Positions 1-14,840 of a stretch of 14,840 nucleotides of DNA are shown one piece after another; the stretch's first letter is position 1; the number at the start of each line of letters is the position of its first letter. Origin of the DNA: Thermoplasmata archaeon (lineage in GTDB: Archaea > Thermoplasmatota > Thermoplasmata > Thermoplasmatales > GCA-001856825); the NCBI GenBank assembly GCA_021793855.1, contig JAJYRY010000013.1, forward strand, positions 1 through 14,840, given 5' to 3'. The notes below the pieces were generated by a model that did no database searches, was not told where the DNA came from, and worked only from the letters and a program-made list of their open reading frames with translations. Position numbers and translations under genes: made by a program.

Positions 1-78
1 AAGAACTGCTAAAGCACTGAATATCATTGCTACTGTGATCAATACCGTAAGCATTTTTTTGTTGTTAGGTTTATACAT
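1..78 (-). CDS. Exported protein, N-terminal signal peptide only (partial)
   Basis: Only the first 26 codons are inside the window; the gene continues past the left edge. The translation starts MYKPNNKKM and runs into a hydrophobic stretch (LTVLITVAMIFSALAVL), the form of a Sec signal peptide or N-terminal membrane anchor: basic n-region, then an apolar core. The ATG at 78 is chosen because a strong Shine-Dalgarno GGAGGT (92-87) lies 8 nt upstream and a TATA-like TTTATATAT (122-114) lies about 25 nt before the SD. The product is therefore probably secreted or membrane-anchored, like the two large surface proteins further right, but nothing of the mature protein is visible and no family can be named. 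It is divergent from the rest of the window. Confidence 0.7.
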   Translation of the reverse strand, partial: MYKPNNKKMLTVLITVAMIFSALAVL

Positions 79-86
79 TATTTTAA

Positions 87-122
87 ACCTCCAACCTTAG
101 GAGAATATTAATGATATATAAA
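87..122 (-). promoter_or_regulatory. TATA box and Shine-Dalgarno of the left-edge exported-protein gene
   Basis: On the minus strand TTTATATAT (122-114) is a good archaeal TATA box. Transcription would be expected to begin near 90-95, giving a very short leader that carries GGAGGT (92-87) before the ATG at 78. The match to both elements at sensible spacing is direct; the transcription start is inferred. Confidence 0.55.
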
Positions 123-152
123 CGTTGTGAATTTTTTATCCACCTGTGACAT

Positions 153-170
153 TTTTCTGACGTCAGAAAA
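153..170. promoter_or_regulatory. 18-bp perfect palindrome upstream of the left-edge promoter, possible operator
   Basis: TTTTCTGACGTCAGAAAA is a perfect inverted repeat with no spacer, centred between 161 and 162. It sits about 30 bp upstream of the TATA box of the leftward exported-protein gene. A spacerless palindrome at this distance suits the binding site of a dimeric regulator acting on that promoter. Which protein binds it cannot be told from sequence. With no loop and no T-tract it is a poor terminator. Confidence 0.4.
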
Positions 171-225
171 CCTCATATTTTCTGCAAGTGAATAAACAAT
201 TTATATTTAGATATTTATTTTGAAA

Positions 226-483
226 TCAAAAGTTGTCATACGTTTCATTTTTAAACTCTTCTTCAGGAAGTAAGCTACAAATCTCACTTCCTAAGAGAGA
301 ATTGACCTTGAACCTTGCGGCCAGTTCAAAGCATATGACTTCTTTGCACGGCTTAGTAATAAGTTAGATTGTTCCGTTAGTCTCGAGCGACTATTCATCA
401 TTACCTATAACAGATAGTCTCTTATGCTCACTGAAATTCGTCTCTGGAGAGCGGCGAGACCCATATTGCCATTTCGGAACTGA
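226..483 (-). pseudogene. Probable decayed DDE-transposase C-terminus
   Basis: One minus-strand frame reads as protein-like sequence interrupted by two stops. From the start: SVPKWQYGSRRSPETNFSEH then KRLSVIGNDE, stop TAG, eight residues, stop TAA, then 45 residues including KEVICFELAARFKVNSLL and LLPEEEF before a TGA at 228-226. The run 'YG.RRSPETNFSEHKR' resembles the region around the last catalytic Glu of IS4/IS5-type DDE transposases (pattern R..vEt.FS..KR). The downstream part resembles the helical C-terminal tail of such enzymes. No intact start is visible, and a further frameshift around 484-540 is possible. No terminal inverted repeats or target duplication were found. Two internal stops in 86 codons is not by itself unusual for noncoding DNA, so the call rests on the motif. 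Alternative: unrelated noncoding sequence. Confidence 0.35.
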
Positions 484-585
484 CTAGCCTACTTATTCCG
501 ATGCCGGAGATTGTTTATTCATACTCGTTCATTCATCCGAATCGTACTTTAGGACCGAGAATTAAGTCAAGGGAAGAGGATGGAG

Positions 586-595
586 CATATAAATA
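586..595 (+). promoter_or_regulatory. TATA box of the AbrB-like gene (leaderless transcript)
   Basis: CATATAAATA is centred about 28 nt before the ATG at 619, which would place transcription initiation at or next to the start codon. There is no convincing SD directly before this ATG, which fits leaderless translation. Confidence 0.5.
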
Positions 596-618
596 ACAGT
601 TAATACATATACCAGGAA

Positions 619-876
619 ATGGCAAGGAGAATGAAGGTAGGACCTAAAGGACAAATCGTGATACCTAAGGACATAAGAGATAAACTTGGAATCAAAGAGT
701 TCTCTGAGGTATTGATTGATCTTAGAGGTACAGAAGTAGTAATCAGCCGATCAGCACCAACATCAGTATCACACACGGATTTTTTCACTACCACTTATGC
801 AAAAAAACTCAAACAAAAAGTAGACCTTAAAAAGGTCCTGGATGAGGAATATGAAAGGAACTTACAAATGAAGTAG
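619..876 (+). CDS. AbrB/MazE/SpoVT-fold DNA-binding protein (antitoxin-like)
   Basis: An 85-residue protein. Residues about 4-46 form a swapped-hairpin AbrB domain, recognised by KVGPKGQIVIPKDIRDKLGI followed by a 'vlidlrgtevvis' beta segment. Proteins of this size with this N-terminus are usually dimeric DNA-binding antitoxins of the VapB/MazE type or small transcription regulators. The C-terminal half (about 55-85) is charged and helical (KKLKQKVDLKKVLDEEYERN), the kind of tail that wraps a toxin partner in VapB proteins. No PIN-domain or MazF toxin follows; the next gene is a recombinase about 160 bp downstream. It may therefore be an orphan antitoxin or a regulator of the neighbouring integrase. 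The ATG at 619 is supported by a TATA box 28 nt upstream. The fold is fairly certain; the role is open. Confidence 0.85.
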   Translation: MARRMKVGPKGQIVIPKDIRDKLGIKEFSEVLIDLRGTEVVISRSAPTSVSHTDFFTTTYAKKLKQKVDLKKVLDEEYERNLQMK

Positions 877-1006
877 CAGGAAAGTTCCGATGTTTAGGGT
901 GGAGACGAATTGTGAAATATTTATACCAAGACCTAAGGTACAAAAAATTTGGAATGACTGCCATAGAATTGAATTGTTTGATTTTTGTTTGATGTGTTGA
1001 ATCAGA

Positions 1007-1013
1007 TTTATAT
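1007..1013 (+). promoter_or_regulatory. TATA box of the recombinase gene
   Basis: TTTATAT is centred 26 nt before the ATG at 1036, the spacing expected for a leaderless archaeal transcript. This argues for the ATG over the upstream in-frame TTG (985) and GTG (994), neither of which has an SD. A second A/T-rich TATA-like stretch at about 914-925 could be an alternative promoter. Confidence 0.45.
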
Positions 1014-1035
1014 CACCTTACTTTCTTACTTCTTC

Positions 1036-2328
1036 ATGGAGGGGGATAGCGTTTATCATATAGAGGAAACTCTAGAACAGACAAAAATTCGTTTGAATCG
1101 GGATGATTCTTTAAGTCCTGGGGTTAAGAAAGCAATTCTAGATTTCATAGACGACCTAACTATGGACAACCTATCTAAGCACAGGCAGTACTTCTACATC
1201 ACGAGATTGAAGGTACTGGGCCGAATCATGGGAGATTCGTTCCTGCATCCTACTAAACAGGATATCAAGACTGCAATACTGAAACTCAAAGCATCCAAGA
1301 CGAGGAGAAACGGAAATTATGCTGACAGCACGATGAATGGAATGTACATGACCCTCAAGAAATTCTACCGCATTTATGACGATGGGAAGTATATGGAATC
1401 TGTTAGATGGCTAAGATTGAACTGGAATCCTGCCAAGGAGAAGAAACCGGAAGACATAGTGACTGCAGACGAGCTAACAAAACTTCTAAGCGCTTGCCGT
1501 AACGATAGGGATAGTGCCATGATATCGATGCTATACGATTCCGGATGTAGGATTGGTGAACTCTTAACTCTTAGGGTAAAGGACCTGGATTTCGACACTT
1601 ATGGACTGAGACTGACGGTGAAGGGAAAGACAGGAGTAAGGAAGGTAAGGGTTGTGGGGAAAAGTGTTGCACTGGCACGACAGTACCTAGAAGGTTCTAA
1701 AAGAAATGATCCTGATGGTTTCTTCTTTACCATGATACGTGGAACTGGGCCCATGAAATGGAATGACGTGAATATGATGCTCTATAAAGTTAGCAAGAGG
1801 GCGGGAATCAATAGAAAGATACATCCTCACTTGTTCAGGCATACGAGAGCGACAATCCTGGCCAAAGACTTGAAACAGGCACCTCTGGAATCCACTATGG
1901 GATGGGTCCATGGATCAAGGATGTCCAGGATTTATGTGAATTTCAGCGATGAGCAGGTAGATGATGCGATTTTGAAGGTCTATGGAATTGATAAGGAGAG
2001 GGGTAGAGAGAGAAATACGAATCAGCCTCAACCAGTGATATGCCAGAGCTGCGGGGCAGAGAATTCTTCCAATGCCTCTTACTGTTACAGATGCGGTACT
2101 TCTCTGTATAAGAAAGATGACAGTAAGACAGCGAGCGAAGTAAAGGAGACTTCAATTTCTTCTGCTACTTCTTCAGAAGATGATGACAGAACAAAGAAGA
2201 TACTGAAGAATTTCGATCCAGAATCCAAGGACGAGATAGTTGAAGCGGTTATATCAGAAATCGTTAAGAATCCTCAACTGGCACAGAGATTCCTTGAAGC
2301 GCTTGTAACAAAAAAGAGAACTTCCTAG
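1036..2328 (+). CDS. Tyrosine recombinase/integrase with C-terminal zinc ribbon
   Basis: A 430-residue site-specific recombinase of the lambda-integrase/XerD class, which breaks and joins DNA through a 3'-phosphotyrosine. The helical N-terminal core-binding part spans about 15-125. The catalytic domain spans about 140-320. Visible active-site candidates, numbered from the ATG, are Arg172 (GCRIGELL), Lys196/198 (VKGKTG), His265 and Arg268 (HPHLFRHTRAT), His292 (GWVHGSRM) and nucleophile Tyr300 (RIYVNF). All are present, so the enzyme is probably active. Beyond the usual end are a CxxC-x10-CxxC zinc ribbon (Cys336, 339, 350, 353) and a Ser/Glu-rich linker with a helical tail. This extension of about 100 residues is not part of the minimal XerD architecture and may add DNA or partner binding. 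The start could also be TTG 985 (447 aa); ATG 1036 is preferred because a TATA box lies 26 nt upstream. Partner att sites were not found. It could be a resident Xer-type enzyme or the integrase of an element. Confidence 0.9.
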   Translation: MEGDSVYHIEETLEQTKIRLNRDDSLSPGVKKAILDFIDDLTMDNLSKHRQYFYITRLKVLGRIMGDSFLHPTKQDIKTAILKLKASKTRRNGNYADSTMNGMYMTLKKFYRIYDDGKYMESVRWLRLNWNPAKEKKPEDIVTADELTKLLSACRNDRDSAMISMLYDSGCRIGELLTLRVKDLDFDTYGLRLTVKGKTGVRKVRVVGKSVALARQYLEGSKRNDPDGFFFTMIRGTGPMKWNDVNMMLYKVSKRAGINRKIHPHLFRHTRATILAKDLKQAPLESTMGWVHGSRMSRIYVNFSDEQVDDAILKVYGIDKERGRERNTNQPQPVICQSCGAENSSNASYCYRCGTSLYKKDDSKTASEVKETSISSATSSEDDDRTKKILKNFDPESKDEIVEAVISEIVKNPQLAQRFLEALVTKKRTS

Positions 2329-2381
2329 TAATTCAGCCATTTGGTGCAACAGGTCATCCCCAACACTATGTCACATCTCGC

Positions 2382-2398
2382 CCCTTTCAAAGGGTTTT
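2382..2398 (+). terminator. Hairpin and T-run after the recombinase gene
   Basis: CCCTTT and AAAGGG flank a single C (2382-2394; in practice a 4-bp stem with a 5-nt loop), followed by TTTT. It lies about 55 nt after the recombinase stop. Archaeal termination depends mainly on T-tracts, so this is only a moderate candidate. The T-rich stretch at 2526-2546 is an alternative. Confidence 0.35.
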
Positions 2399-2519
2399 CT
2401 TATGGAGCTTTCGTAAAACGTTCAAATAATCATGCTTAAATCCTTTAATTAAGATCTTCAGGAATTTTTTAAAACATACTGAATATCCGTGTATAAGAGG
2501 ATGAAGACTCAATGAGCAT

Positions 2520-2651
2520 GTGAATTACTTTTTCTTTTTGCTTTCAGGTACTACTTGGACAATGACGCAATTCAAAACTAAATATTCTCAGGTCTTGAAA
2601 ATAAACATCGTTTACCCCAATACATCGACCGATTTGCTTGGTTGTTATTGA
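2520..2651 (+). CDS. Possible 43-codon ORF, perhaps a decayed surface-repeat fragment
   Basis: A GTG at 2520 opens a short frame ending at a TGA (2649-2651). A TATA-like GTGTATAAGA (2489-2498) lies 26 nt upstream, right for a leaderless transcript. The product begins with a hydrophobic FFFLL stretch, then SGTTWTMTQF, which recalls the SGT.W.VTLN core of the beta-repeats in the two surface proteins downstream. An I.I...PNTS stretch follows at roughly the expected distance. It could be a remnant of a third repeat protein, a short leader peptide, or chance. It has no SD and T-rich DNA in its first half, and the length is too short for statistics to help. The rest of the gap between the recombinase and the thermopsin gene shows only the hairpin noted above. 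Confidence 0.22.
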   Translation: MNYFFFLLSGTTWTMTQFKTKYSQVLKINIVYPNTSTDLLGCY

Positions 2652-2715
2652 ATTTTTAGCGGACAAAAAGTACTTAGGATATTAAGAGTCAAAGTTTTAT
2701 GGAGAAAAGATTCAA

Positions 2716-5505
2716 ATGAAGAGCGAGAAGTACATCAAGGTCTTTGCAATTGTCATTATATCATTATTCTTGCTCTCAGGAGCGATTCAATTCGCTGTAA
2801 ACCAAAATTCCCCATTGGGGACAGACGCTAAGTCAGCAGCCCTCTCAAACTACATCCCTGCTACCGGTAGCGGAAATAAACAATCCGGGCAAGTAGTGAG
2901 TGTAAACAGTCTATATTCTGCGGAACCGGCACCTATGGGTATAGCTGATTATGGAATCGGTTCAGGGGGTATACCGTACAACTATTCTACTACCTCATTC
3001 CTTGGGCATGTTGACATAAAGAATCTCAGGACTTACAATTCCTCACTTAATGCTTCTGCCACCGAGATGACATTCCAGCTAAACATAAACTTCGTCTTCT
3101 ACGATGGATCTAAGGAGTATGTGTACTGGGTACAGAACGTTGCAGATTTCAACACCTCTTCCACCCCCTCAATAGGGTTTATAGACAACGTGTGGAATAT
3201 TAGCGCGCCAAGCGCCGGCGTCTACAATTCGACTCTAAGCGGAAATGGAACGGTAGGCAATTCCTCCGGCACATTCTTCTACTATTCTTTCGCGAACCAG
3301 AGTCTTCCTGGGAATGACATCTACGTCTCCTACCCCTTCAACATGGAGATGGCTATAAATTATACCTCCACTTCACATGGAATCCCTGAATTAGAGTTCA
3401 CTTACAATGATGGTCACGGCTGGCAAACCTACGACAACGTGCTTTTCAACTTCGCTACCAATGTAACAAAGATCAGTGGCTTCGTTGTCAATGGCTTTAA
3501 TTATGAGCCTAATGGCTATTCTTTCTACGATGCGGAACTGATACTTGGCGGACCAGGTGACGGAACGCAGACAAATGACACGAATTCATCAGTCGCTCTG
3601 CAGCTGGATTACTTCAACGGACACAACTACCAGATGATAACGAATGCATACAACTTCGGGAGTGATACTGCTGAAGGAATCAGGAACGTTACTTCAAATG
3701 CACAATATTACCTCTCCAACGGTTCCCTCTTCGCTTCCATCACTAGTGGCCCAGGTAAACTTGAGCAGATATACAACAGGAGTGCGATAGCACTGCTGAA
3801 CATATCCGTCCCTGGAACATCAGGGTATGTTGTTGTTAACGGTACAAGGTACAATTTCGTGGGAGGGGACGCAAATCTCACATTAGCAGCTGGCACTTAC
3901 AATATAAAGGTTTACAACTCAAATTCATCGATCATTCTTCAGAAGAACGAGACTTTAGCTGCAGGAAGCTATGTTTTCCTTTCGGCAGTTTCATCCTATA
4001 AAGTCACATTCATGAGTTCGGGTTTACCCAGAGGTACTACCTGGTATCTCAACCTTTCAGATGGAAAATCACTTCGAACGGATACTTCCAGCATCTCCAC
4101 TAACCTCACAAACGGCAGCTATTCCTACAATGCAACAGCAGGGGCTACATATCATGCAACCGGCAGCTTTAACGTATCTGGGAAAACCGTGACAGTGGAT
4201 GTTGTTTTCAAGACACTTGTTCCAAAAACATACCAAATTGCATTCCAGGAAATTGGGCTGTTATCAGGGACTGCGTGGAATATAACTCTGAATGGGACCC
4301 TGAAGTCTTCCTCTTCGTCTACGCTCATATTTGACGAATCAAATGGCACATATTACTATGCAGTCGGAACTGTTGAGGGATTCACTGCAATACCGTCTTC
4401 TGGAGAGGTCAATATCACAGGTAAGAACGTGAGCATCACGATAGTCTTTTCACCTTCAGTAACTGTTTCCAAGTACAGCGTCATATTCACGGAGACAGGA
4501 CTGGTTTCCGGGATATGGTATGTGAACCTTACAAATGGGCAAAGCGCTTATTCATCTTCGGCAACCATAACTTTTCTGCTGGCAAATGGCACTTACAACT
4601 ATTCAGTATCTACAGGCAACACTCTGTTTGAACCAAGTCCCGTTAACGGTACTTTCACTGTGAAAGGGTCGACAGTGACTGTCAACATCAAGTTCTCTGA
4701 ACTGCAATATTCGCTCCAGTTCAACGAGACTGGCCTGCCTGCGGGCTCACAGTGGTCAGTGACACTGAACGGAACCACTGAGTCCTCCACATCCAACAAC
4801 ATATCGTTCCTTGTACTACCCGGAAATTACACTTACATCATAGTCCCCCCATCTGGATATACAGCCACGCAGATCTCGGGTGAAGTAAGGGTTGTCGATT
4901 CACCACTATACATCAACACAGCATTCTATCAGGAAAAATACAACGTGACCTTCTTTGTAACGGGGCTTGCTTCGGGAACACTTTGGACAGTTGATTTCAA
5001 CGGTACATCGGTGTCCACCTCGTTTGATTCCGTCACGTTCTCTGTGACTAATGGGAGCTATACCTTTGCGATAGCTAACGTGACTGGCTATACAGTGTCA
5101 CCTGAAAATGGGAATGTCATTGTGAATGGTTCTTCAATGACTGAATCAATCGTCTTCTCCCAGGTCATAACTGCAGGTTACTTCACCGGTTCTGTGACAC
5201 CGGCAAATGCCACCATATACGTGAACGGACAGGCGTACACACAAACAAATGGCCAGTTCAACATCTCGCTGCCCCCTGGAACATACGAGGTGAAGGTAAG
5301 TGCTCCTGGATACAGCACCTATACGGAAAACATAACGGTAACGTCATCCACAGCAACGCAGCTGACCGCCCTGTCCCTTGAGAAGACAAATACCCCTGCC
5401 AAGACATCCCCGACCAATGATGTGGTCATAGTTGTTTTCGTGATAGTTATAGTCATAGTACTAGCGGGAGTGAGTCTCGCAATGAGATCTAGGAGGAAGA
5501 AGTAG
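2716..5505 (+). CDS. Membrane-anchored thermopsin (peptidase family A5) with Ig-like repeats and PEGA-like domain
   Basis: A 929-residue secreted acid protease. The signal peptide is residues about 1-30. The thermopsin domain spans about 66-360, recognised by PMGIADYG (73-80), 'TTSFLGHVDIKNL', 'YVYWVQNVADFN', 'VWNISAPS', 'YNDGHGWQTYDNV', 'YDAELILGGPG' and 'NFGSDTAE' (314-320). Thermopsins digest proteins at low pH and high temperature; I cannot assign their catalytic residues from this sequence. A small PEGA-like domain (about 365-425) follows. Five tandem beta-repeats start at Tyr428, 506, 587, 665 and 742, period 77-81 residues, with core motif 'TGL.SGT.W.v.lNGT'. A PEGA-like domain (about 821-893), a transmembrane helix (903-922) and a basic tail RSRRKK complete it. 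N-x-S/T sequons are dense. The repeats probably hold the protease away from the membrane. The ATG at 2716 has GGAG 11 nt upstream and begins a clear signal sequence. The gene stands alone, with a T-rich terminator after it. Confidence 0.88.
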   Translation: MKSEKYIKVFAIVIISLFLLSGAIQFAVNQNSPLGTDAKSAALSNYIPATGSGNKQSGQVVSVNSLYSAEPAPMGIADYGIGSGGIPYNYSTTSFLGHVDIKNLRTYNSSLNASATEMTFQLNINFVFYDGSKEYVYWVQNVADFNTSSTPSIGFIDNVWNISAPSAGVYNSTLSGNGTVGNSSGTFFYYSFANQSLPGNDIYVSYPFNMEMAINYTSTSHGIPELEFTYNDGHGWQTYDNVLFNFATNVTKISGFVVNGFNYEPNGYSFYDAELILGGPGDGTQTNDTNSSVALQLDYFNGHNYQMITNAYNFGSDTAEGIRNVTSNAQYYLSNGSLFASITSGPGKLEQIYNRSAIALLNISVPGTSGYVVVNGTRYNFVGGDANLTLAAGTYNIKVYNSNSSIILQKNETLAAGSYVFLSAVSSYKVTFMSSGLPRGTTWYLNLSDGKSLRTDTSSISTNLTNGSYSYNATAGATYHATGSFNVSGKTVTVDVVFKTLVPKTYQIAFQEIGLLSGTAWNITLNGTLKSSSSSTLIFDESNGTYYYAVGTVEGFTAIPSSGEVNITGKNVSITIVFSPSVTVSKYSVIFTETGLVSGIWYVNLTNGQSAYSSSATITFLLANGTYNYSVSTGNTLFEPSPVNGTFTVKGSTVTVNIKFSELQYSLQFNETGLPAGSQWSVTLNGTTESSTSNNISFLVLPGNYTYIIVPPSGYTATQISGEVRVVDSPLYINTAFYQEKYNVTFFVTGLASGTLWTVDFNGTSVSTSFDSVTFSVTNGSYTFAIANVTGYTVSPENGNVIVNGSSMTESIVFSQVITAGYFTGSVTPANATIYVNGQAYTQTNGQFNISLPPGTYEVKVSAPGYSTYTENITVTSSTATQLTALSLEKTNTPAKTSPTNDVVIVVFVIVIVIVLAGVSLAMRSRRKK

Positions 5506-5558
5506 CTGCTTTCACGATAGAACTATTGTGTGAGAATTTCAGAACCCATTATTACTCT

Positions 5559-5572
5559 CCTTTTTATTTTTC
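5559..5572 (+). terminator. T-rich terminator after the thermopsin gene
   Basis: CCTTTTTATTTTTC, two T5 runs in about 14 nt, lies roughly 55 nt after the thermopsin stop. This is the usual look of an intrinsic archaeal terminator. It separates this gene from the giant surface-protein gene, which has its own promoter. Confidence 0.5.
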
Positions 5573-5754
5573 GCCCTTTGTTGATGTCCACTTGATATGC
5601 GGCTAACCAATTAGATTTATCGATTTCAACGATATCAAACTAAAAGTTCGGGAAGGAGCTCTACCTTGTTTTGGGACAATTGTTCGTGCGCTAAGCTCTA
5701 TCAATTAGCACTTACAATGCCGTTTATTACAACGAAGGAAATAGTTCCGAAAGG

Positions 5755-5793
5755 GATATATAAGCTACAGACCATTTATAGGCATAGAGAGGT
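5755..5793 (+). promoter_or_regulatory. Promoter and Shine-Dalgarno of the giant surface-protein gene
   Basis: GATATATAAG (5755-5764) is a strong TATA box with purines (CGAAAG) just upstream as a possible BRE. GAGGT (5789-5793) lies 7 nt before TTG 5801. A second TATA-like TTTATA (5775-5780) could drive a leaderless message from the same TTG. All of this lies inside the longer open frame that begins at TTG 5666, so the longer N-terminus is unlikely to be translated. Confidence 0.6.
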
Positions 5794-5800
5794 AATTATA

Positions 5801-8800
5801 TTGATCTATCAAAGGAAAAAAATTATAAGTCTCTCAGTGAAACTCCTTGTATTTTTCTTGATCGCTGTTCTAATGCTCGAGAACATGCCTGCGCTGAACG
5901 CTATGCCTCAAGTTGCTGCATCCAATGCTAACCTACCTGCACAGTATTCCATCACGTTCAATGAAAAGGGGCTTCCATCCGGAACATTATGGACTGTGGA
6001 AGTCATAATGAACAATTCGGGGAACATCTCTTACGGGTCTCGGAACTCAACGATTGAATTCTCCGAGCCTAATGGAAGCTACAACTACGTTGTACTGTCT
6101 TCCTCTTCATACGTGACACCTGAGGCCTCTGGATCGTTGAACGTTTCTGGTCTTCCTCTGACATTCGTGATAAATTTCCAAAGGACTGCCGTTTCCGAAT
6201 ATTACCAGCCTTATACTCCCCTTAACGTTTCTCAGGAAAGGACGTTCAGCTTGAGCTCGCAGCCAGGACCTAGTGCACTTGATTTTGGTGTCATGAACAC
6301 AACGTTGAATATCTTGGTTTACAATGGCACAGGACTAGTATACTACGAGAATATCACCGGTCAGCCGACCAACTTCAACACGACCACAACTACCAAAGGA
6401 TACGGTTACGTGAATTTCCAGTCATCGAGCATCATAACTGTCCAGGTAACAGATGTTGGACATTCATCAGGATACTTTGCGCTTGACCTGTGGAATTACT
6501 ACATCTCCAACAGTTCAGCCTCCCTGATAACGCTCCCGCCGCACTTCCAGGAGATATTTGGAACTGGAACCCTTAATCGAAATATCGGGACATTCCTTGT
6601 GAAGAACAATACGGGTATGTCATTCACTCTCGTCGCTCCGTACTACAATGAGGCCGTCCCACTCTCCATATGGATCGGTGAGGGGTACTACAACCTTGAG
6701 ACAGGGAAATACTGGTGGGCGCAGTTGGGGTTTGACAACGTGAGGAATGGAACGTACGACGTCTCATACGGAGGATGGGGCGTCTTCTCCAACTACGCAT
6801 CCACCCCTGGTGGAGTGGATACGAACTTCCCGCTTGTTCCCAACCAGACGTACACATTCACGATGCAGAGTGTGGCCAACGGTTCGTGGGAATTCCTGAT
6901 AAACGGTCTTCCAGTGACGGAAAGCGGCACTGCGTTCTACGATGCACCCACCGCTTTCGCAAACGGAAATGCATACCTTGGAGTGGAGGTCTCGCTCTAT
7001 TCGAGCCTCAATGAAGTTTACCCGGGATCGATCGTGATTCCGAATGTGGAGTCTTTCAGGGTGAACGGAAGCTGGGAGCGCGCAACTAACGTCTCCTTCC
7101 TCAACGGGGAAAGGGACTGGGAGGATGGGCATTACGGAACTGTAGCAGGGATGAACTTGTTCGGGGTGGAAGGCAATCTTCAGAACAGGAGCATTCCGCA
7201 GGGAGAGATGATAATCAACAAAGGGCCGTATACCCCATACGAAGTCCCGTCAGGGGTCAGCTACGATGTTTATCCTATATCAGGCAACTTCTCCTTTCCG
7301 TGGCAGAACGTGAGCAGATACGGTAAATTCGTAGATGTGACAAGTGAGACAAACGGCACACTCCTCATTGTCCCGCAGCATCCAAACACTGAAGTATTTG
7401 TAGTGAGATTCGAGAACTCCTCTAGCTACGTATACAGCGACCAGGACATGATAATTTCCCAGCCTGTTTATGTTGCCAATCCTGCGATGGATTTCAGGGC
7501 TGCCATATATGCAGTTCCGCTCAACTCTTCCACATCCTCTTTCAGGTATGACGGCATATACCAGGAGATTGCTCTTGGGCCTATCCTCCCGACACCCTCC
7601 AAGGGGGTTAGCACATTCTCCCTTGGAAATTCATCCACTTCCTACTCCGGAGAGGTTTACGTGCCTGTGTACCTGAATGGCGCTCCATCACTCACAAATC
7701 TGGAGCAGGTCTATTCCTATGACCCCTCACTGCTGAAATTCAATGGCACCCTTTCCGTCCCTTCCTCGGAGTACGTCTCCTTCAGCTACAGCAATCTTTC
7801 AAGTGGAGTAATGGAGCTCAGTGCAACTGGAAGTTTCACCATTGTCTCACCTCAAACCCTCCTCTTCTACCTCGTTTTCCAGCCTATCCTGAGGGAACAG
7901 GTATCCACGCAGATACTGCTGGACAGTTCAGTGATAAATGGCTTCATCATCAGCGGGAACAGCTCCTCAAGGATCACACTCGCAGAGGGATGGAGAAGCA
8001 TTGGGCCATCAGATATTTCCATCCCGGGAAGCAATATGACATCAGGTGGGATGATCTCGGACGTAGCCTATTCGCCTTATGACATGAACATACTTTATGC
8101 GGCTGCAGGACAGAGTTATCCTTTTGCAGGACCGAACGGATATCCTGGTGATACAGGATTCGGGGGAATATTGAGGTCAACGGACGGAGGGAAAACGTGG
8201 ACTGTGGAGAATCTCGGACTGACCTCTACAGCCATAACGGCAATTGCCGTCAATCCCAGCAATCCCAACATCGTCGTGGTGGAGAGCAGGGGGTTGAATG
8301 GGGGTGACCCTGTCGGCGGTGCCATTTTCAAGACAATTAATGGAGGAGAAAGCTGGGAAGAGACTTACGATCTAGGAGGGTTTGACCTGCAGTATCTCAA
8401 TGGTACACTCTACGCCACCACATTTTATTCCCTGCTGAAATCTACCAATTTTGGGACGACCTGGACCACCATGGCCAATTTTTCCCAGATTGTGACTTCT
8501 TCCCTTGTTCTTGACAACGGGTCTAGGATCTATGTGGGACTCTGGTCCCTATCAACCAACGTTACCGATCAGATACTTGAGTCCACTGATTACGGTGCGA
8601 GCTTCAAGCTCCTTCAGAACTTCACGCAGTCAGAATTCGACGGGAAGGAGCCTTCAATAAGCCAGATCATAGCCAAACCGTCTAACAGCTCTATAATGTG
8701 GGCACTCATAAGTTCACCATATATCAGGGGAAATGGACACGGGCTTGGAAACCCGTCTCTTTACAGTTCATCAGATGGCGGAAGAACATGGGAACAGGTC

Positions 8801-11800
8801 AACACTACACAGCTGGGAATGGGGTACTTGCCGGAACCACCATCATACATATCTTACGACCCCACTAATGGCAGCATTCTCTATGTTGTCGGCAATGGTT
8901 ACATCTTCAGGTCCACTGACGGAGGGGTCAGTTTTACGGGCCTCACTCCCCCCAGTACTTCCCTCTTTACCGATGAGCTGAACGTCGACCCGCTGAACAG
9001 CAGCATACTATTCCTATGCTCTGAAACGGGTTTATACCGGTCATTTGACAGCGGGAAAACATGGGCCCAGATATCGGATGCGCAGACGAACCTGCTGCTC
9101 CAGCTAGCGGTGGACAACCAGAGCATTTTTGCAGTTGGAGAAGGGACCAACCCATTATATTCCAATAACCTTGGAAACAGTTGGACGACAAATACGAAAG
9201 GATATCTGGGAGTTGTTGCAGTAGACCCATACAACTCGTCTATCGTCATAATATGGACGGAGACTCATACCACCGTGGGAGGACCATTCTTCTTTGTTTC
9301 AAATAATGGGGGAACGTCATTCTTCCTTCCTGACATTAATTTCACAGCAGAAGTCAATCCGAGCGTTGAAAACATTGCATTCTCAAGAAATGAAATATTC
9401 GTTCCTGGAGGAGACGGGATATTCATCAGCACGGATGGAGGATCAAGCTGGTCTCTCATAAAGAATTCGCCAGCCAACGCCTCTACTGTGGTTGATTCGC
9501 CCTCAGACCAGAGCATTCTCTATGCAGCCAACGGTTCCGGACTCTTCGTTTCACAGGACAATGGAATTTTGTGGAACAAGGTCAACACTGCCTACTTTGG
9601 ATCGCTAGCTGTTGATCCTTCTAACTCTTCGATAATTGCTGCCACCACTCTCTACGGCAGCCCTTACACATACAGGGCAGTGATAAGCTATAACGGAGGG
9701 AAGACGTTCGATTATCTCGGATTGAGTTCAGAAGAATACGAACTTTCTTTCGCATCCATTTATTTCCAGGAGATTGGGGGAAAATTAGAACTGGTCTTCA
9801 TTTCAGATGAGGGAATTTATCTCTCTGGAAATATGGGCAGTACTTGGACGAATGTATCTTACAACCTCCCCTCCACTCTAATAAACAGCTTTTTCTCGAG
9901 CGGCAATGGAACGTCCTACGTTGCAACGTATGGCTCTGGAATCTATGTTGATCCGCAATTATTCAACCTAAGCTTCAATGAAAACGCGCCAATACTGACA
10001 GGTTACCTTGGGGCAGGAAATAATGTGACGGTTGATGGATCCCTCATCAGAGGCTCGGGTTACTTTTCCCTTCGTTTGAGTGCAGGTAATAATTCTATAA
10101 ACTGGGAGGGAGAGAAACTTAACCTTGATGCTATGAATGGTAATGTCTACTTCATCAATTTCAGCAATATGCAGGTACATCTGACCATTACTGGCGAGAA
10201 CCTTCCTGCTGGGACTGAATGGAACATATCTGCTAACGGGAACATTTACGCAATCAAAGGAACATCCACAATCATTCTCCCTCCGTTCACGAGTGGGATA
10301 TATGTATATCCATTTGCAACCGAATATTCGATATACTACCCCTCCAAGACATTCTATCCCATCAAATCCTCCCTTTTCCCGTCAATCTCCATAAATTTCA
10401 CGCAGAAGGAAGAAACGTCAAACTCAAACATCACCTCCAAGGTTTCTGGAATAATGTGGGACGCTGGGTCCGTATATAATGATGGCTACATACTCTACTA
10501 CGGCCAGGGGCTTGGGTTATATGATGTGAAAGATGGTTCCTTTGTTCCAATAAATTCCCAGATACGGGGATACTTCAGGTCTGCAGTCTCATTTGGTTCA
10601 GGATTTGTTTTAGGGGGTTCTAACGACGGGAGTGGAGGCATCCTTGGATTTTACAATCTTACCGACATGAGCTTAGAGAACATGACCGGCCTGATGCCAC
10701 AGACCTGGCAGCATATGCCCTTAGGTACCATTACTTCCGTAACAGCATCCAGCAGCTCCATATATATTGCGCTTGCTGCAAGCGGCCACAACTATCTGGG
10801 AGAGATAAGTGGCACAAGGTTCACTAATCTCACTAGCTACATCCATCTCTATCAATACAACGGTGGTGAAGATGGTCTTGCCATTGATTATATAGAAGGC
10901 CTTGATGCCATTGCATTCTCCACCTACTGGAATCAGGGTTTCCTGGGTATTCTCTATCTGTCAAATTTAACTGCAGATAATTTGACTGCCATGCTTCCGC
11001 AGGGTATTGAAATAGGAAACGTGATGTCAACAAGTTCAGCCGTCCTCTCTTCAGGACAGTATTCATTCGACATAATTGCAACAGGGCAGAACGGAACTGG
11101 TTACGTTGGCATTTTCTATTATTCGGGGAATTCTTTCCTGCACACCGCCTTATGGCTTCCATACTTTAGCCCGAGTTCAACGGATTGGGATGGGCATGAT
11201 TACATTGTGAGCGGCCAGTGGTCTGATGGTGATTCCTACGTGGTTGCAGTCGGTTCAGGGAGTAAGGTATCGTACATCCCTACGGGCATCACAGGCTCTG
11301 GTACAATGATAAATTCAGCAACGAGCATCAACTATTCCAGATTTGCTCTTGTCTATTACTATAACGGGAGTTATTTCAATGACTATTATTCCATGGTAAG
11401 TGCCAATCCTGTATCTACCGTCAGAGGATTTGTATCTCCAAATAACGGGTCTCTCTACATAGACGGTATTCAAAGTGGCATCACCAATTCTGAATATTCG
11501 TTCCCTGTGTTCAGTGGTAATACAACGATCTCATATTCCTCTCCTGGGTACGTAACTGACAGTCGTCAAATATATTCACCACCATTCTCGACCACCTGGG
11601 AGAATATCAGCCTTAATACTGCACCAACGAAGTTGTACCAGATCGTTTTCATAGGGAATGGTCTCTCTTCTGGTACATCTTGGTCAGTCACACTTAATGG
11701 AACGACCGAATCATCGACCACCAATGATATAATATTCTCTGAACCTAACGGGACCTACCCTTACTCCCTTTCAATACCTCAAGGATACACTGCATCAAAC

Positions 11801-12271
11801 TCTTCTGGGACCATAATATTGAATGGAAGGAACATCACTCAAACCGTCATTTTCGTCTCAAACACCACAGCTACATATACGATAATATTCACCGAATCTG
11901 GACTACCGTCTAGCACATTATGGTCGGTGACACTCAACGGAACAATGAAATCTTCCACTGCTAACTCAATCACATTCACGGAACCGTATGGGACATATTC
12001 ATTCTCCATAACACTACCTAGTGGCTATAAAACCACCACATCAGGTGGTGAAATCACAACAACGCAATCGAGTACTAACGTTCCTATCAATGTCAGTCCT
12101 ATATCCAAGACCACAACTCCGCCTGCCACAACCAATTATCTGTTGATTGGCGTAATAGTGGTAATAATCGCGGCGATAGGAGCTGTGATTGCGATGAGGA
12201 GAAGAAGGAATAAGGGTCGCAAACCCGATAAACTGCAGGAACCACCCAGTCAACTACCGCCTAAAGGATGA
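5801..12271 (+). CDS. Giant anchored surface protein with Asp-box propeller(s), cohesin-like domain and Ig-like repeats
   Basis: A 2156-residue exported protein. Domains, numbered from TTG 5801: signal peptide about 1-40; one Ig-like repeat from Tyr49; an unrecognised beta-rich region about 130-590, whose middle (about 250-475) resembles a jelly-roll or lectin fold; a cohesin-like domain about 605-725 ('GEVYVPVYL', 'YDPSLLKFNGTL'); 13 Asp-box motifs (S.D.G.tW) at 793, 845, 881, 928, 990, 1038, 1081, 1121, 1167, 1210, 1251, 1296 and 1342, diagnostic of beta-propellers as in VPS10/sortilin, GH74 and sialidase-type folds; a divergent Ig-like repeat near 1457; a second propeller-like region about 1547-1867 without Asp boxes; a PEGA-like domain about 1870-1940; two repeats at 1946 and 2026; a transmembrane helix 2114-2132; and a basic, Pro-rich tail. 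A binding or glycan-processing role at the cell surface is inferred; no catalytic residues can be assigned. The start is TTG 5801 rather than TTG 5666, because SD and TATA fit and a signal peptide follows directly. Confidence 0.85.
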   Translation: MIYQRKKIISLSVKLLVFFLIAVLMLENMPALNAMPQVAASNANLPAQYSITFNEKGLPSGTLWTVEVIMNNSGNISYGSRNSTIEFSEPNGSYNYVVLSSSSYVTPEASGSLNVSGLPLTFVINFQRTAVSEYYQPYTPLNVSQERTFSLSSQPGPSALDFGVMNTTLNILVYNGTGLVYYENITGQPTNFNTTTTTKGYGYVNFQSSSIITVQVTDVGHSSGYFALDLWNYYISNSSASLITLPPHFQEIFGTGTLNRNIGTFLVKNNTGMSFTLVAPYYNEAVPLSIWIGEGYYNLETGKYWWAQLGFDNVRNGTYDVSYGGWGVFSNYASTPGGVDTNFPLVPNQTYTFTMQSVANGSWEFLINGLPVTESGTAFYDAPTAFANGNAYLGVEVSLYSSLNEVYPGSIVIPNVESFRVNGSWERATNVSFLNGERDWEDGHYGTVAGMNLFGVEGNLQNRSIPQGEMIINKGPYTPYEVPSGVSYDVYPISGNFSFPWQNVSRYGKFVDVTSETNGTLLIVPQHPNTEVFVVRFENSSSYVYSDQDMIISQPVYVANPAMDFRAAIYAVPLNSSTSSFRYDGIYQEIALGPILPTPSKGVSTFSLGNSSTSYSGEVYVPVYLNGAPSLTNLEQVYSYDPSLLKFNGTLSVPSSEYVSFSYSNLSSGVMELSATGSFTIVSPQTLLFYLVFQPILREQVSTQILLDSSVINGFIISGNSSSRITLAEGWRSIGPSDISIPGSNMTSGGMISDVAYSPYDMNILYAAAGQSYPFAGPNGYPGDTGFGGILRSTDGGKTWTVENLGLTSTAITAIAVNPSNPNIVVVESRGLNGGDPVGGAIFKTINGGESWEETYDLGGFDLQYLNGTLYATTFYSLLKSTNFGTTWTTMANFSQIVTSSLVLDNGSRIYVGLWSLSTNVTDQILESTDYGASFKLLQNFTQSEFDGKEPSISQIIAKPSNSSIMWALISSPYIRGNGHGLGNPSLYSSSDGGRTWEQVNTTQLGMGYLPEPPSYISYDPTNGSILYVVGNGYIFRSTDGGVSFTGLTPPSTSLFTDELNVDPLNSSILFLCSETGLYRSFDSGKTWAQISDAQTNLLLQLAVDNQSIFAVGEGTNPLYSNNLGNSWTTNTKGYLGVVAVDPYNSSIVIIWTETHTTVGGPFFFVSNNGGTSFFLPDINFTAEVNPSVENIAFSRNEIFVPGGDGIFISTDGGSSWSLIKNSPANASTVVDSPSDQSILYAANGSGLFVSQDNGILWNKVNTAYFGSLAVDPSNSSIIAATTLYGSPYTYRAVISYNGGKTFDYLGLSSEEYELSFASIYFQEIGGKLELVFISDEGIYLSGNMGSTWTNVSYNLPSTLINSFFSSGNGTSYVATYGSGIYVDPQLFNLSFNENAPILTGYLGAGNNVTVDGSLIRGSGYFSLRLSAGNNSINWEGEKLNLDAMNGNVYFINFSNMQVHLTITGENLPAGTEWNISANGNIYAIKGTSTIILPPFTSGIYVYPFATEYSIYYPSKTFYPIKSSLFPSISINFTQKEETSNSNITSKVSGIMWDAGSVYNDGYILYYGQGLGLYDVKDGSFVPINSQIRGYFRSAVSFGSGFVLGGSNDGSGGILGFYNLTDMSLENMTGLMPQTWQHMPLGTITSVTASSSSIYIALAASGHNYLGEISGTRFTNLTSYIHLYQYNGGEDGLAIDYIEGLDAIAFSTYWNQGFLGILYLSNLTADNLTAMLPQGIEIGNVMSTSSAVLSSGQYSFDIIATGQNGTGYVGIFYYSGNSFLHTALWLPYFSPSSTDWDGHDYIVSGQWSDGDSYVVAVGSGSKVSYIPTGITGSGTMINSATSINYSRFALVYYYNGSYFNDYYSMVSANPVSTVRGFVSPNNGSLYIDGIQSGITNSEYSFPVFSGNTTISYSSPGYVTDSRQIYSPPFSTTWENISLNTAPTKLYQIVFIGNGLSSGTSWSVTLNGTTESSTTNDIIFSEPNGTYPYSLSIPQGYTASNSSGTIILNGRNITQTVIFVSNTTATYTIIFTESGLPSSTLWSVTLNGTMKSSTANSITFTEPYGTYSFSITLPSGYKTTTSGGEITTTQSSTNVPINVSPISKTTTPPATTNYLLIGVIVVIIAAIGAVIAMRRRRNKGRKPDKLQEPPSQLPPKG

Positions 12272-12289
12272 AAAAATATTCCCACAATA

Positions 12290-12310
12290 GATGCCAGTTT
12301 TTCTGGCATC
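12290..12310 (+). terminator. Perfect 8-bp hairpin after the giant gene
   Basis: GATGCCAG, TTTTT, CTGGCATC: a perfect 8-bp stem closed by a T5 loop, starting 19 nt after the stop codon. Its position fits a transcription terminator or an mRNA 3'-end stabiliser. The T-run is in the loop rather than after the stem, which is atypical for a bacterial-style terminator, though the T5 itself could signal archaeal RNA polymerase. Confidence 0.5.
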
Positions 12311-12367
12311 AACATTTATTTCTGTGTCATTTACGTTGCTTGAACTTGAGTTCTCACAAAATATCGA

Positions 12368-12598
12368 GTGCAGAAGTCGGGTTCAGAGCGAAAGAGTCTC
12401 GACACCCGGGCAGCGAAGAGGATAATACGGAAAATAGAAAGTGCGAGAAGTGACCCACACAGATTTTTCGTGAGGCTCGTTGGAAAGATAGAGTTCAAGC
12501 TGAGGGTAAGTGACTACATTGTGATCGCTGATATCGATGAAGAGAGGAGGGTCATTATCATCAGGTCTCTGGGGCACAGGAAGAACATCTATAAGTGA
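12368..12598 (+). CDS. RelE/ParE-family toxin, N-terminus disrupted; possibly a pseudogene
   Basis: A 76-codon frame from GTG 12368. 'KSLDTRAAKRIIRKIESA' forms the helical hairpin, 'DPHRFFVRLVG' the linker, 'FKLRVSDYIVIADIDEE' the central strands, and 'IIIRSLGHRKNIY' the C-terminus with the family's His-Arg...Tyr. RelE proteins cleave mRNA at the ribosome; ParE relatives inhibit gyrase. The first beta-strand is missing here. It appears instead in another frame: GTG 12324 gives 'LLELEFSQNIE', the usual RelE opening. A frameshift at about 12366-12391 would therefore restore a full toxin. The usual LRVGDYRV motif reads LRVSDYIV, so a generally conserved Arg is Ile. No antitoxin gene adjoins it. 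Membership of the family is quite secure; activity is doubtful. It could be a decayed toxin, or a sequencing frameshift in an intact one. Confidence 0.7.
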   Translation: MQKSGSERKSLDTRAAKRIIRKIESARSDPHRFFVRLVGKIEFKLRVSDYIVIADIDEERRVIIIRSLGHRKNIYK

Positions 12599-12954
12599 TC
12601 TTGACTTCAATGTAATCACGCCTGGCCTGAGCCTCATCATCAACCAAAGCGGTATGACGTTACAATTGGTACCTACATTTGAATGTGAGTCGTTGTAATT
12701 CGACGGTTAATCTGCAGAATATTAAGTCTGCAATTTTAATCTCATTCCCATTCGATGCGAATTCCTATCTCATCCCATTGCATAATTGTCATCCGTCCCA
12801 CGAAAGACAAGTGAACTATATCCCGGAGGGAGTTCTCTTTTCCAATGCTTTCGTCAGACAGGATATACTCCAAAAATATTATCTTGAAATTTCAGATATG
12901 AATGCATTAACAATTTAAGGGAATGGGAGAGCTTTCGTTTGGAGGAATAAATAA
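12599..12954. other. Intergenic gap with no supportable gene
   Basis: About 355 bp between the RelE-like frame and the glycosyltransferase gene. A 79-codon TTG-initiated frame (12679-12918) is open, but its product has no recognisable motif and a non-protein-like composition, and no SD precedes it. TATA-like A/T stretches near 12872-12883 and 12911-12919 may serve the downstream gene; neither is a strong match. A weak inverted pair (TTACAA/TTGTAA near 12660-12700) is the only other structure noticed. Confidence 0.4.
12941..12945 (+). promoter_or_regulatory. Shine-Dalgarno of the glycosyltransferase gene
   Basis: GGAGG lies 9 nt upstream of ATG 12955 and fixes that start. Its presence shows this gene has a leadered message, unlike several leaderless genes in the window. 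Confidence 0.65.
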
Positions 12955-13827
12955 ATGAAGAAGACGGCAGTGATATTCAGCTATAACGACGGGAATCTCG
13001 TGCTTTCTCCTCTCAAATCAGTCCTGGAAAGTGACATTGACCAGGTGTTCCTCCTTTATGGGGGGGAAAATGTGTCCCCTGAGATTGAAAAAATAGAGGA
13101 TATGAGGCTCATAAAAGTACTTGAAAAAGAGAGGAAAGGGAAGGTGAGTGCCCTCACTTCCATAGTACCGAACATAGGTGGCGACATAGTGTTCCTTTTA
13201 TCGGGGGATATAACGTTTGATCCTCTCCTGATCAAGAAATGCGAGGATTCTTTTGAAGGAACGACGGGTGTTGTCACAGTCAGGGTTGTCCCTTCCAACT
13301 CTTCGCACTACACTGAAAAGGTTGCATCACTGATGTGGGAAATGCACGATCTCCAGCTTTCATATCTTTCAGGAAGCGGGAAGAACGTACACGGCGGCGA
13401 ATTCATCTGCGCAAGGAAGGAACTGCTGTTTGACATCCCAGAGGTCGTGAACGAGGATGCATACATCTGCATAAGGGCTTCCAAGGCCGGCCTGTCTGTC
13501 GTCTATCTCGGTGATGAGAACGTCAGAAATATGGTACCATCGAATCCAATGGACCTTTTCCAGCAGAGGAGGAGGGTGAATTTTGGGCACATCGAGATTA
13601 GGAAAATAGGATGGGATCCCATGATAATGGATACGCTCATGTTCAGCGATACTTCCCTTTTCCTCAAAATTTTCATAAAATTCCTTAGGGAGAGGAAATG
13701 GGATCTTCTTACCCTCTTAGGCGCAATTTCAATTGAAATCGTATCAAATGTCTCGGCAAGAATGGATTTACTGCTAGGCAAGGATCACATAAGATGGACG
13801 ATGGTAAAGAGGAACAACCATTCCTGA
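12955..13827 (+). CDS. Family 2 glycosyltransferase (GT-A fold)
   Basis: A 290-residue enzyme expected to transfer a sugar from a nucleotide-sugar donor onto a lipid, glycan or protein acceptor at the inner face of the membrane. The N-terminal strand AVIFSYNDGN (5-14) begins the nucleotide-binding fold. 'KGKVSAL' (61-67) matches the GKa.AlN segment. 'LSGDITFDP' (82-90) is the metal-binding DxD region, with Asp85 central. 'VNEDAYICI' (165-173) carries the acceptor-side ED pair (Glu167, Asp168). 'QQRRRVNFG' (203-211) is the QxxRW-like motif, with Val replacing Trp. This D / ED / QxxRx layout is that of the processive or cellulose-synthase-like GT2 branch, but the multi-span transmembrane part is missing; only a moderately hydrophobic C-terminal helix (about 250-275) is seen. 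A complete SD precedes the ATG. Closeness to two sequon-rich surface proteins suggests a role in surface glycosylation, an inference from context only. Confidence 0.85.
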   Translation: MKKTAVIFSYNDGNLVLSPLKSVLESDIDQVFLLYGGENVSPEIEKIEDMRLIKVLEKERKGKVSALTSIVPNIGGDIVFLLSGDITFDPLLIKKCEDSFEGTTGVVTVRVVPSNSSHYTEKVASLMWEMHDLQLSYLSGSGKNVHGGEFICARKELLFDIPEVVNEDAYICIRASKAGLSVVYLGDENVRNMVPSNPMDLFQQRRRVNFGHIEIRKIGWDPMIMDTLMFSDTSLFLKIFIKFLRERKWDLLTLLGAISIEIVSNVSARMDLLLGKDHIRWTMVKRNNHS

Positions 13828-13940
13828 ATATTATTGGCAGTTTCAGGTAACGAAGTTCAGAACATATTGATTTCCATGAAGCAGTGTGTTCTGCGCTAAT
13901 GGAACCCCCTTCCACAAATTCCTTGCTCTTGCTATTTGAA

Positions 13941-13952
13941 AAGTATTAATAT
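13941..13952 (+). promoter_or_regulatory. TATA box of the DUF973-like gene (leaderless)
   Basis: AAGTATTAATAT is centred about 27 nt before ATG 13973, and no SD is present. Transcription is expected to start at or beside the start codon, so this gene is not simply cotranscribed with the glycosyltransferase 145 bp upstream. Confidence 0.5.
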
Positions 13953-13972
13953 GGATCGCACATTATTACAAA

Positions 13973-14641
13973 ATGAACGGAGTAGTGGGACAGGATCAAA
14001 CTGCCAAAACATCTTCTGAAATGGAAGCACTCAGGAGCATAAGGACGTTCTCCATCCTCTCGATTTTTGGTTTTGCGATAGATGCGGTCGTTGCTATTAT
14101 TGCACTGCTTTCACTGCCCAAGCTCATTACGTCATTTATAGCCCCTTCAGCTGCACCTGCTGCACCATTAGTAAGCCTGGGCATAGAACTGTCTCTTGGT
14201 GGGCTCGGGATAGCTGCCGCAGTATTGATGATAGTGTCGTTTGTTTTCCTGAGGAGAGGATACAGGGCGCTCAAAGGAGTATCAAAAGAATTTTCATCCC
14301 CGTATACGGGAGTAAATATGTTCTTCATCGGCTTACTTGTAATAATATTAGGTTCAATCATAATCATCCCTTTGGCATTGTTCTCTTCATCTGCAATTGC
14401 TCTGTCTATCGGCATCATAGCGGTGCTGGTAATCGGATTGATATTGGCATTCATAGGGGAGATTCTTGCACTCATAGTTGGTCCGTTCAGGCTTGGGACA
14501 TACTTCAACAAGTCAACTTTCAGAACTGCGGGAATAATGATGATAATAGGCCTGTTCGTACCTTTCATTTCGATAGCTGGTGTAGTGCTGATATATTCTG
14601 CGGCAAATTCTGTGCTCAGGATTACATCCCAAGTCATTTGA
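13973..14641 (+). CDS. DUF973-like integral membrane protein
   Basis: A 222-residue membrane protein of unknown function. After a polar N-terminus with 'SEMEALRSIRTFSILSIFG' there are about five hydrophobic segments: roughly 26-48, 68-93, 114-137, 141-171 and 186-212. Cytoplasmic-type loops are 'FLRRGYRALKGVSKEFSSPYTG' between the second and third, in which the FRRGY..L....YTG pattern is characteristic of the archaeal DUF973 family, and 'PFRLGTYFNKSTFRTAG' before the last, which fits the family's 'RLG.....  ..k.gg' segment. Length and topology agree with DUF973 proteins of Sulfolobales and Thermoplasmatales, whose role is not established. A long antisense frame overlaps it but has no coding character. 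It converges with the tRNA gene about 75 bp downstream; a T-rich TTTCTTTGATTTC stretch just after the stop may terminate it. Confidence 0.75.
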   Translation: MNGVVGQDQTAKTSSEMEALRSIRTFSILSIFGFAIDAVVAIIALLSLPKLITSFIAPSAAPAAPLVSLGIELSLGGLGIAAAVLMIVSFVFLRRGYRALKGVSKEFSSPYTGVNMFFIGLLVIILGSIIIIPLALFSSSAIALSIGIIAVLVIGLILAFIGEILALIVGPFRLGTYFNKSTFRTAGIMMIIGLFVPFISIAGVVLIYSAANSVLRITSQVI

Positions 14642-14717
14642 AATTTCTTTGATTTCAGTAACAAACACGGGTAAATTTGGAACTTGCACGACATGAAGAG
14701 CAAAGTTTGTATGGGTA

Positions 14718-14817
14718 TGCCGGGGCTGGGATTTGAACCCAGGGCCTCCGGATTTCTCCGGACGATTAAGCGTTATTCCCTATGAGTCCGGCGCTCCACC
14801 AGCTAAGCTACCCCGGC
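14718..14817 (-). tRNA. Elongator tRNA-Met(CAT) with a 27-nt intron at 37/38
   Basis: On the minus strand the gene folds fully. Acceptor GCCGGGG pairs with CCCCGGC. D stem GCTT/GAGC closes an 8-nt loop. Anticodon stem CCGGA/TCCGG holds loop CTCATAA, anticodon CAT. Variable loop is AGGCC. T stem CTGGG/CCCAG holds TTCAAAT. Discriminator is A and no CCA is encoded. Exon 1 is 14817-14781, the intron 14780-14754, exon 2 14753-14718; mature length is 73 nt. The CCGGA stem and acceptor match archaeal elongator Met rather than the initiator, which would show GGG/CCC in the anticodon stem. Around the junctions a bulge-helix-bulge forms: C32-U33-C34 pairs with GAG (A35 opposite G is a mismatch), 3-nt bulges UAG and AAA are cut between the second and third base, and an inner GGA/TCC helix follows. 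A tRNA-Ile(CAU) is the less likely alternative. Confidence 0.93.
14754..14780 (-). other. tRNA intron, spliced through a bulge-helix-bulge
   Basis: The 27-nt intron (starts GGGAATAACG, ends CCGGAGAA) lies after A37. It contains TCCGGAG, a 7-nt copy of the 3' strand of the anticodon stem plus two bases. The copy supplies both the central GGAG strand and the inner TCC strand of the splicing motif. Removal by the archaeal splicing endonuclease is expected. Confidence 0.85.
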
Positions 14818-14840
14818 TTCAGACTCCTCTTCCTCTTCTT

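Follow-up and report, generated by a model that had tools for sequence, protein, structure and literature searches.

Organisation of the surface-protein gene

The window analysed here, a stretch of 14,840 nucleotides from a Thermoplasmata archaeon (assembly GCA_021793855.1, contig JAJYRY010000013.1, positions 1 to 14,840 of the forward strand), carries between a thermopsin gene and a GT2 glycosyltransferase gene a long gene for a surface protein with a predicted tandem propeller of Asp-box blades. The open reading frame (ORF) at 5666-12271 on the + strand encodes 2201 amino acids when read from TTG 5666 and 2156 when read from TTG 5801. We think that TTG 5801 is the likelier start codon, because a Shine-Dalgarno-like GAGAGG is present just upstream of it at 5787-5792 and the relative P0002 (78% identical) begins at the matching position. 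Residues are numbered from TTG 5666 unless stated otherwise; a preliminary description of this DNA counted from TTG 5801, so that its residue numbers are lower by 45. The parts of the gene are as follows.

5801..12271, + strand: surface-protein gene, with an N-terminal hydrophobic segment, a C-terminal hydrophobic segment and a basic tail
6182..7585, + strand: N-terminal module (residues 173-640), with a small beta-sandwich at ~175-279 and a ConA-like sandwich at ~308-542
7592..7972, + strand: cohesin-like sandwich (residues 643-769)
7973..9961, + strand: tandem Asp-box propeller, predicted 7+7 (residues 770-1432), from an AlphaFold2 model, Foldseek and profiles
8177..9847, + strand: 13 Asp-boxes, from a pattern search, each starting on the final residue of a third strand
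9962..10405, + strand: linkers, PEGA-like (1433-1503) and Ig-like (1504-1580), named by eye
10130-10174, + strand: apparent exchange seam (residues ~1489-1503, NGNVYFINFS), from an identity step against P0126
10433..11410, + strand: third repeat module without Asp-boxes (residues 1590-1915), a probable propeller with internal profile repeats
11411..12088, + strand: PEGA-like domain (under the Pfam cut-off) and two Ig-like stalk repeats

The C-terminal hydrophobic segment was taken as a transmembrane segment by reading of the sequence, and in the 19-residue tail at the C-terminus lysine and arginine make up 26% of the residues as compared to 3.2% outside it. Between residues 76 and 2150 there are 69 N-glycosylation sequons as compared to 33.8 in 500 shuffles (maximum 50), and a single Cys. 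The third repeat module (1590-1915) has no Pfam match; its profile repeats on itself best at a shift of ~39-45 residues (E 1.8e-10), and it is probably a third propeller.

The predicted tandem Asp-box propeller

A relaxed form of the S-x-D-x-G-x-x-W pattern finds 12 Asp-boxes in the protein, while 1000 shuffles of it give a mean of 0.13 and a maximum of 2. The 13th box, SQDNGILW at residue 1296, is matched once the seventh position is widened. Widening also brings in one match away from the run of boxes, SPNNGSLY at 1924 (14 matches in total), which we count as a chance match. The boxes start at residues 838, 890, 926, 973, 1035, 1083, 1126, 1166, 1212, 1255, 1296, 1341 and 1387, with first bases at 8177, 8333, 8441, 8582, 8768, 8912, 9041, 9161, 9299, 9428, 9551, 9686 and 9824. 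The run therefore spans residues 838-1394 and ends at base 9847, reproducing exactly the 13 motifs reported in the preliminary description at 793-1349 in its own numbering, and the reported spacings are confirmed as well (36-62 residues, 40-48 in 9 of the 12 intervals). According to the preliminary description, the propeller reading would fail if the boxes did not fall on equivalent beta-hairpins; in the predicted model all 13 lie at the end of the third strand of successive blades.

The AlphaFold2 model of residues 770-1440 has a predicted local distance difference test score of 84.6 and a predicted template-modelling score of 0.82, and contains 14 blades. When it was searched with Foldseek against the PDB, the 25 best matches were all GH74 chains, matched over the whole length, as with the GH74 xyloglucanases 6p2n, 6mgj, 2cn3 and 5fkq. 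Seven-bladed rings superpose on the model at 2.8-3.0 A and draw on both of its ends, and the single rings in the match list that are familiar to us are of this seven-bladed kind. The fold is therefore most likely a GH74-like 7+7 tandem propeller, as the preliminary description had offered as one of two choices. While the fold and the blade count come from the prediction itself, the split into two rings and the cleft between them should be taken as probable features of it. A survey of Asp-box structures (Quistgaard and Thirup 2009) describes GH74 as type 3, with two seven-bladed Asp-box rings made by an unbroken series of blades, and the single box run, 14 predicted blades and whole-length match of our model place the window protein provisionally in the same type. 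There are also differences from GH74: the boxes number 13 here and 4+5 in GH74, the two rings are oriented differently in the model (root-mean-square deviation 7.6-9.4 A), and the propeller is part of a 2156-residue anchored surface protein and lacks the RTDxGG motif. In the survey no n-bladed structure has more than n-1 boxes (Quistgaard and Thirup 2009). The box set, 13 in 14 blades, is thus unusually complete, and a 7+7 split, if true, would require one ring to have a box in every blade.

The other choice, a VPS10/sortilin-like ten-bladed receptor ring with extra blades, draws on the likeness of Asp-box blades and on Pfam, which labels the protein Sortilin-Vps10 (8e-24) besides PSII_BNR (1e-9). 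Sortilin is a single ten-bladed ring in the same survey (Quistgaard and Thirup 2009), whereas the best structural matches of the model are GH74 chains and seven-bladed rings use both of its ends. Moreover, the Cys-rich 10CC domains of that family are ruled out because only one Cys is present in residues 76-2150. We therefore disfavour such a ring and regard it as highly improbable. A single-sequence phmmer search against the PDB gave nothing significant (best E 0.15). Asp-box-type propellers found by profile include Ycf48/HCF136 and dispase autolysis-inducing protein (E 2e-9). Their chains of 326-437 residues are too short for a tandem, and we take them to be single rings with no glycosidase activity.

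Apparent module exchange and the variable slot

Identities to the window protein were compared module by module in 22 proteins, and trees of the tandem propeller and of the third repeat module (module 3) were built from 21 sequences, namely 20 of the 129 collected proteins and the window protein. Proteins that lack a module or are incomplete (e.g. P0003, P0005, P0012) and most of the more distant matches were left out. P0002 is evenly similar, with 78% identity in the tandem propeller and 77% in module 3, and this equality argues against a simple rate effect. P0126 and P0127 share 41% of the tandem propeller, 86-87% of module 3 and 93-97% of the preceding linker, and in P0126 identity climbs at the seam from 41% in the tandem propeller through 59% in the PEGA-like linker to 97% in the second Ig-like domain (Ig2). 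P0028 has 37% in the propeller and 78% in module 3, and its first 500 residues differ; despite its similar C-terminal module and tail it carries beta-helix (NosD-like) Pfam labels. The opposite step is seen in P0004, P0006 and P0008 (65-71% in the propeller, 27-31% in module 3). In the identity comparison a similar step occurs in P0121 between the N-terminal module (63%) and the propeller (44%).

The two trees are in strong conflict, as expected from exchange between relatives. By the approximately unbiased (AU) test, the module-3 clade is rejected by the tandem-propeller data (p 2.4e-9) and the propeller clade by the module-3 data (p 1.0e-5). P0006 and P0129, which are sisters in module 3, are rejected as such on propeller data (p 2.5e-4). 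Two sequences stand out in these trees: P0028 sits on a long branch in that of the propeller, and P0018 has an odd letter composition in that of module 3. We infer that the exchange takes place by recombination at the conserved linkers.

The whole gene also varies between genomes. It occupies a variable slot between the thermopsin and GT2 genes, the surroundings of which are the following.

2716..5505, + strand: thermopsin (peptidase family A5) with stalk and PEGA domain (PF05317, E 5.7e-91)
12955..14641, + strand: GT2 glycosyltransferase and DUF973 protein, the far edge of the variable slot, from Pfam and synteny
L046 8246-12355 and 5019-7613, minus strand, genome G001: slot proteins, namely a pro-kumamolisin-domain protein with a similar stalk and an 864-residue protein

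The neighbour at 2716-5505 belongs to family A5 by its thermopsin domain. Of 11 genomes (completeness 52-93%) in the genus that contains the nearest genome, 2 have a full-length propeller gene, and in both it adjoins thermopsin. In G007 (L007) the order is that of the window, thermopsin - propeller protein - GT2 - DUF973, while in G006 (L008) the propeller gene lies just before thermopsin and is followed by an amidohydrolase on the other strand, GT2 and DUF973. In G001 the slot is filled by two proteins, one of 1369 residues in which Pfam finds the pro-kumamolisin activation domain (PF09286, 5.5e-16), and one of 864 residues without a Pfam match above cut-off. The 1369-residue protein may be a sedolisin. 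In G003, two thermopsin pieces are followed directly by GT2. Thermopsin and the pro-kumamolisin-domain protein have an Ig-like/PEGA stalk similar to that of the window protein at the same locus, with a protease or protease-like head where the window protein has propellers.

Between positions 37 and 3794 the window differs from G001 (L046) at only 10 places. From ~3885, inside the thermopsin stalk, the two diverge abruptly, with 55-92% identity per 200 bases over 3801 to 5600, and the right flank is 78-98% identical. Because near-identity stops abruptly in the thermopsin stalk while the right flank is similar, the change of the slot looks like an allele replacement by homologous recombination. 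A tyrosine integrase with a C-terminal zinc ribbon is intact in the window (985-2328) and split into two frames in G001 (L046 16559-17903). Two more genus genomes, G004 and G008 (L051, L052), contain 385-residue frames with weak matches to query residues 432-541 (blades 9-12). Relatives at 36-39% were also seen in metagenome-assembled genomes labelled Bacillota, Nitrososphaerota and archaeon (L009, L010, L011); mis-binning is suggested because L010 and L011 share match and ORF lengths under different labels. None of the 27 pattern matches in viral contigs encodes a relative.

Putative function of the tandem propeller

A GH74 profile, built from six GH74 relatives taken from plasmid records, matches the window-family profile at 99.8-100% probability, which strongly supports common descent with GH74. 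When the profiles are aligned blade for blade, the Asp of RTDxGGxYR, the first catalytic one of GH74, pairs with Gly831, two residues from D829. The column of Gly831 in 32 sequences holds Gly in 28, Ala in 2, a gap in 2 and no acid. The motif RTDxGGxYR is present in all 6 GH74 relatives and missing here, and RTD occurs nowhere in the protein; we take its Asp, invariant in those six, to be a catalytic residue. In just one of the registers does the second catalytic Asp of GH74 (GDxGGF, in the second ring) pair with N1213, and in the close relatives E1159 offers an alternative. In an alignment of 18 sequences the only acids kept throughout are D1187 and D1317, both in DPxN turns; an acid is found in 17 of the sequences at D1065, D1108 and D1150, and in 16 at E1057 and D1429. 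Since the first catalytic Asp falls on a conserved Gly in the blade-for-blade alignment, the propeller is probably not a GH74 enzyme, and catalysis by it appears unlikely.

As for the paired acids that the preliminary description suggested looking for in the cleft, D829 and E1159 lie in comparable loops, between strands 2 and 3 of blades 1 and 8, respectively. D829 is kept without exception in the 12 close relatives whose sequence reaches it (P0002, P0004-P0014), and likewise E1159 in 13 (P0002-P0014). However, the wider alignment of 32 sequences has an acid (D or E) at D829 in only 18 and at E1159 in only 15, the latter site being mostly Gln. The propeller could alternatively be an active glycoside hydrolase, of GH74 type or with its acidic pair displaced, and cleave an extracellular polysaccharide in the cleft. 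This would fit the structural and profile matches and these conserved acids, but the acid-free column, the missing motif and the variability outside the close relatives make it quite unlikely.

In the reading that we favour, with a probability of roughly 0.6, the tandem propeller is the head with which a long surface protein, anchored at its C-terminus and encoded in a modular, recombining locus, binds its ligand. Of the earlier suggestion of an adhesin or a glycan- or peptide-handling enzyme, the binding part is thereby retained as a putative function, while catalysis by the propeller is unlikely in the Gly831 register. Asp-boxes, present in 13 of the 14 blades, would act as staples between adjacent blades. 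Two seven-bladed rings would result, turned towards one another in roughly the GH74 manner, with a broad cleft between them in which a polymer, glycan or peptide is most likely bound rather than cut as GH74 does. The head would sit between the N-terminal module and cohesin-like domain on one side and the probable third propeller, stalk and anchor on the other. As suggested by gene order, the protein probably works with the adjacent secreted acid protease, so that substrate is captured or presented extracellularly at low pH. A possible precedent is the dispase autolysis-inducing protein, an Asp-box propeller which, going by its name, presumably affects a secreted protease. Heads, N-terminal and C-terminal modules appear to be swapped between relatives at conserved linkers, so that specificity could change while the anchor stays.

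Several points weigh against this reading. Two registers compete in the profile alignment and the higher-scoring one is shifted by about one blade, so that the preference for binding over catalysis depends on an ambiguous register. D829 and E1159, being kept in close relatives, could be a catalytic pair specific to the sub-family. Of the 6 loci checked (L007-L012), in which flanks are short as are the contigs, 2 have thermopsin. A full-length propeller gene is missing from 9 of the 11 genus genomes, most of which do have thermopsins. In the 1369-residue protein of G001 Pfam recognised no catalytic domain. The main reservation about module exchange is that the mosaic proteins come from metagenome assemblies and some could be chimeras, which is less likely because the same pattern is seen in P0126, P0127, P0128 and P0028. 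The protein could instead be mainly a structural or adhesive surface-coat protein for cell-cell or cell-mineral contact with no link to a protease. A sequon-rich, stalked protein with a basic tail would suit this role, as would the patchy distribution of the gene and the recurrence of the stalk repeats in other frames of G001, with matches at 26 places there. However, rearrangement has not separated the propeller gene from thermopsin in the window, G007 and G006, and the slot of G001 holds a protein resembling a protease, so we find a mainly structural or adhesive role unlikely.

Another conceivable reading makes the whole protein a cell-bound acid protease, with an acid glutamic peptidase as its N-terminal module and the propellers as a platform that holds the substrate. 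The model of the N-terminal domain is a weakly predicted lectin/glucanase-like sandwich that comes nearest to glutamic peptidases, and Q353, E419 and E441 in its ConA-like part are invariant (Q353-E441 spacing 88). Among glutamic peptidases (eqolisin G1, neprosin, HC7), profile similarity to eqolisins was not significant. Kinship with thermopsin was likewise not significant (E 0.28). Foldseek gave 3 matches with E up to 0.001 for this model, the best being 5g56 (4.2e-6, template-modelling score 0.12), and the A3 profile against the PDB retrieved propellers only and no peptidase. We treat the module as a candidate peptidase, probably a sugar-binding or glutamic-peptidase-like sandwich, and consider a whole-protein protease doubtful.

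A wider and rather tentative proposal, which we hold to be improbable as a whole, is that Thermoplasmata of acid habitats maintain a locus at which cassettes for hydrolases and receptors of the outer surface recombine. The anchor and third propeller would be constant, the tandem-propeller heads and N-terminal modules interchangeable (one of the latter a new glutamic-peptidase branch), and whole alleles (propeller protein, sedolisin, nothing) would be swapped beside thermopsin via shared stalk repeats. Such a locus would correspond, in archaea, to modular receptor-binding or antigen-variation systems, the tandem propeller acting as variable reader.

Little is understood, to our knowledge, of the way in which acidophilic archaea bind polymers and digest them at very low pH. 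A fold like that of GH74 but seemingly without the GH74 acid, encoded beside a secreted acid protease gene and apparently recombining, would show reuse of a scaffold for binding and its modular diversification, and exchange of modules and slot may let acid-loving archaea vary what is bound or digested. As a candidate for a new branch of glutamic peptidases, the N-terminal module lends itself to testing. No account of a link between Asp-boxes and thermopsin, or of Thermoplasmata propeller/PEGA surface proteins, was recognised among the matches listed in a literature search that covers subscription journals thinly. One paper describes a thermopsin-subtilisin fusion in Thermoplasma and a Streptomyces subtilisin with BNR repeats (PMC2605481).

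In the thermopsin of the window, Q121, Q140 and the DAEL stretch (E274) are kept in at least 90% of 25 thermopsin sequences. Kinship of thermopsin with eqolisins was considered and set aside, the sole profile match pairing DAEL with SAEW being not significant (E 0.27). Eqolisin matches (Pfam Peptidase_A4) above cut-off are present in 22 of the 101 genomes of the order (L067-L083).

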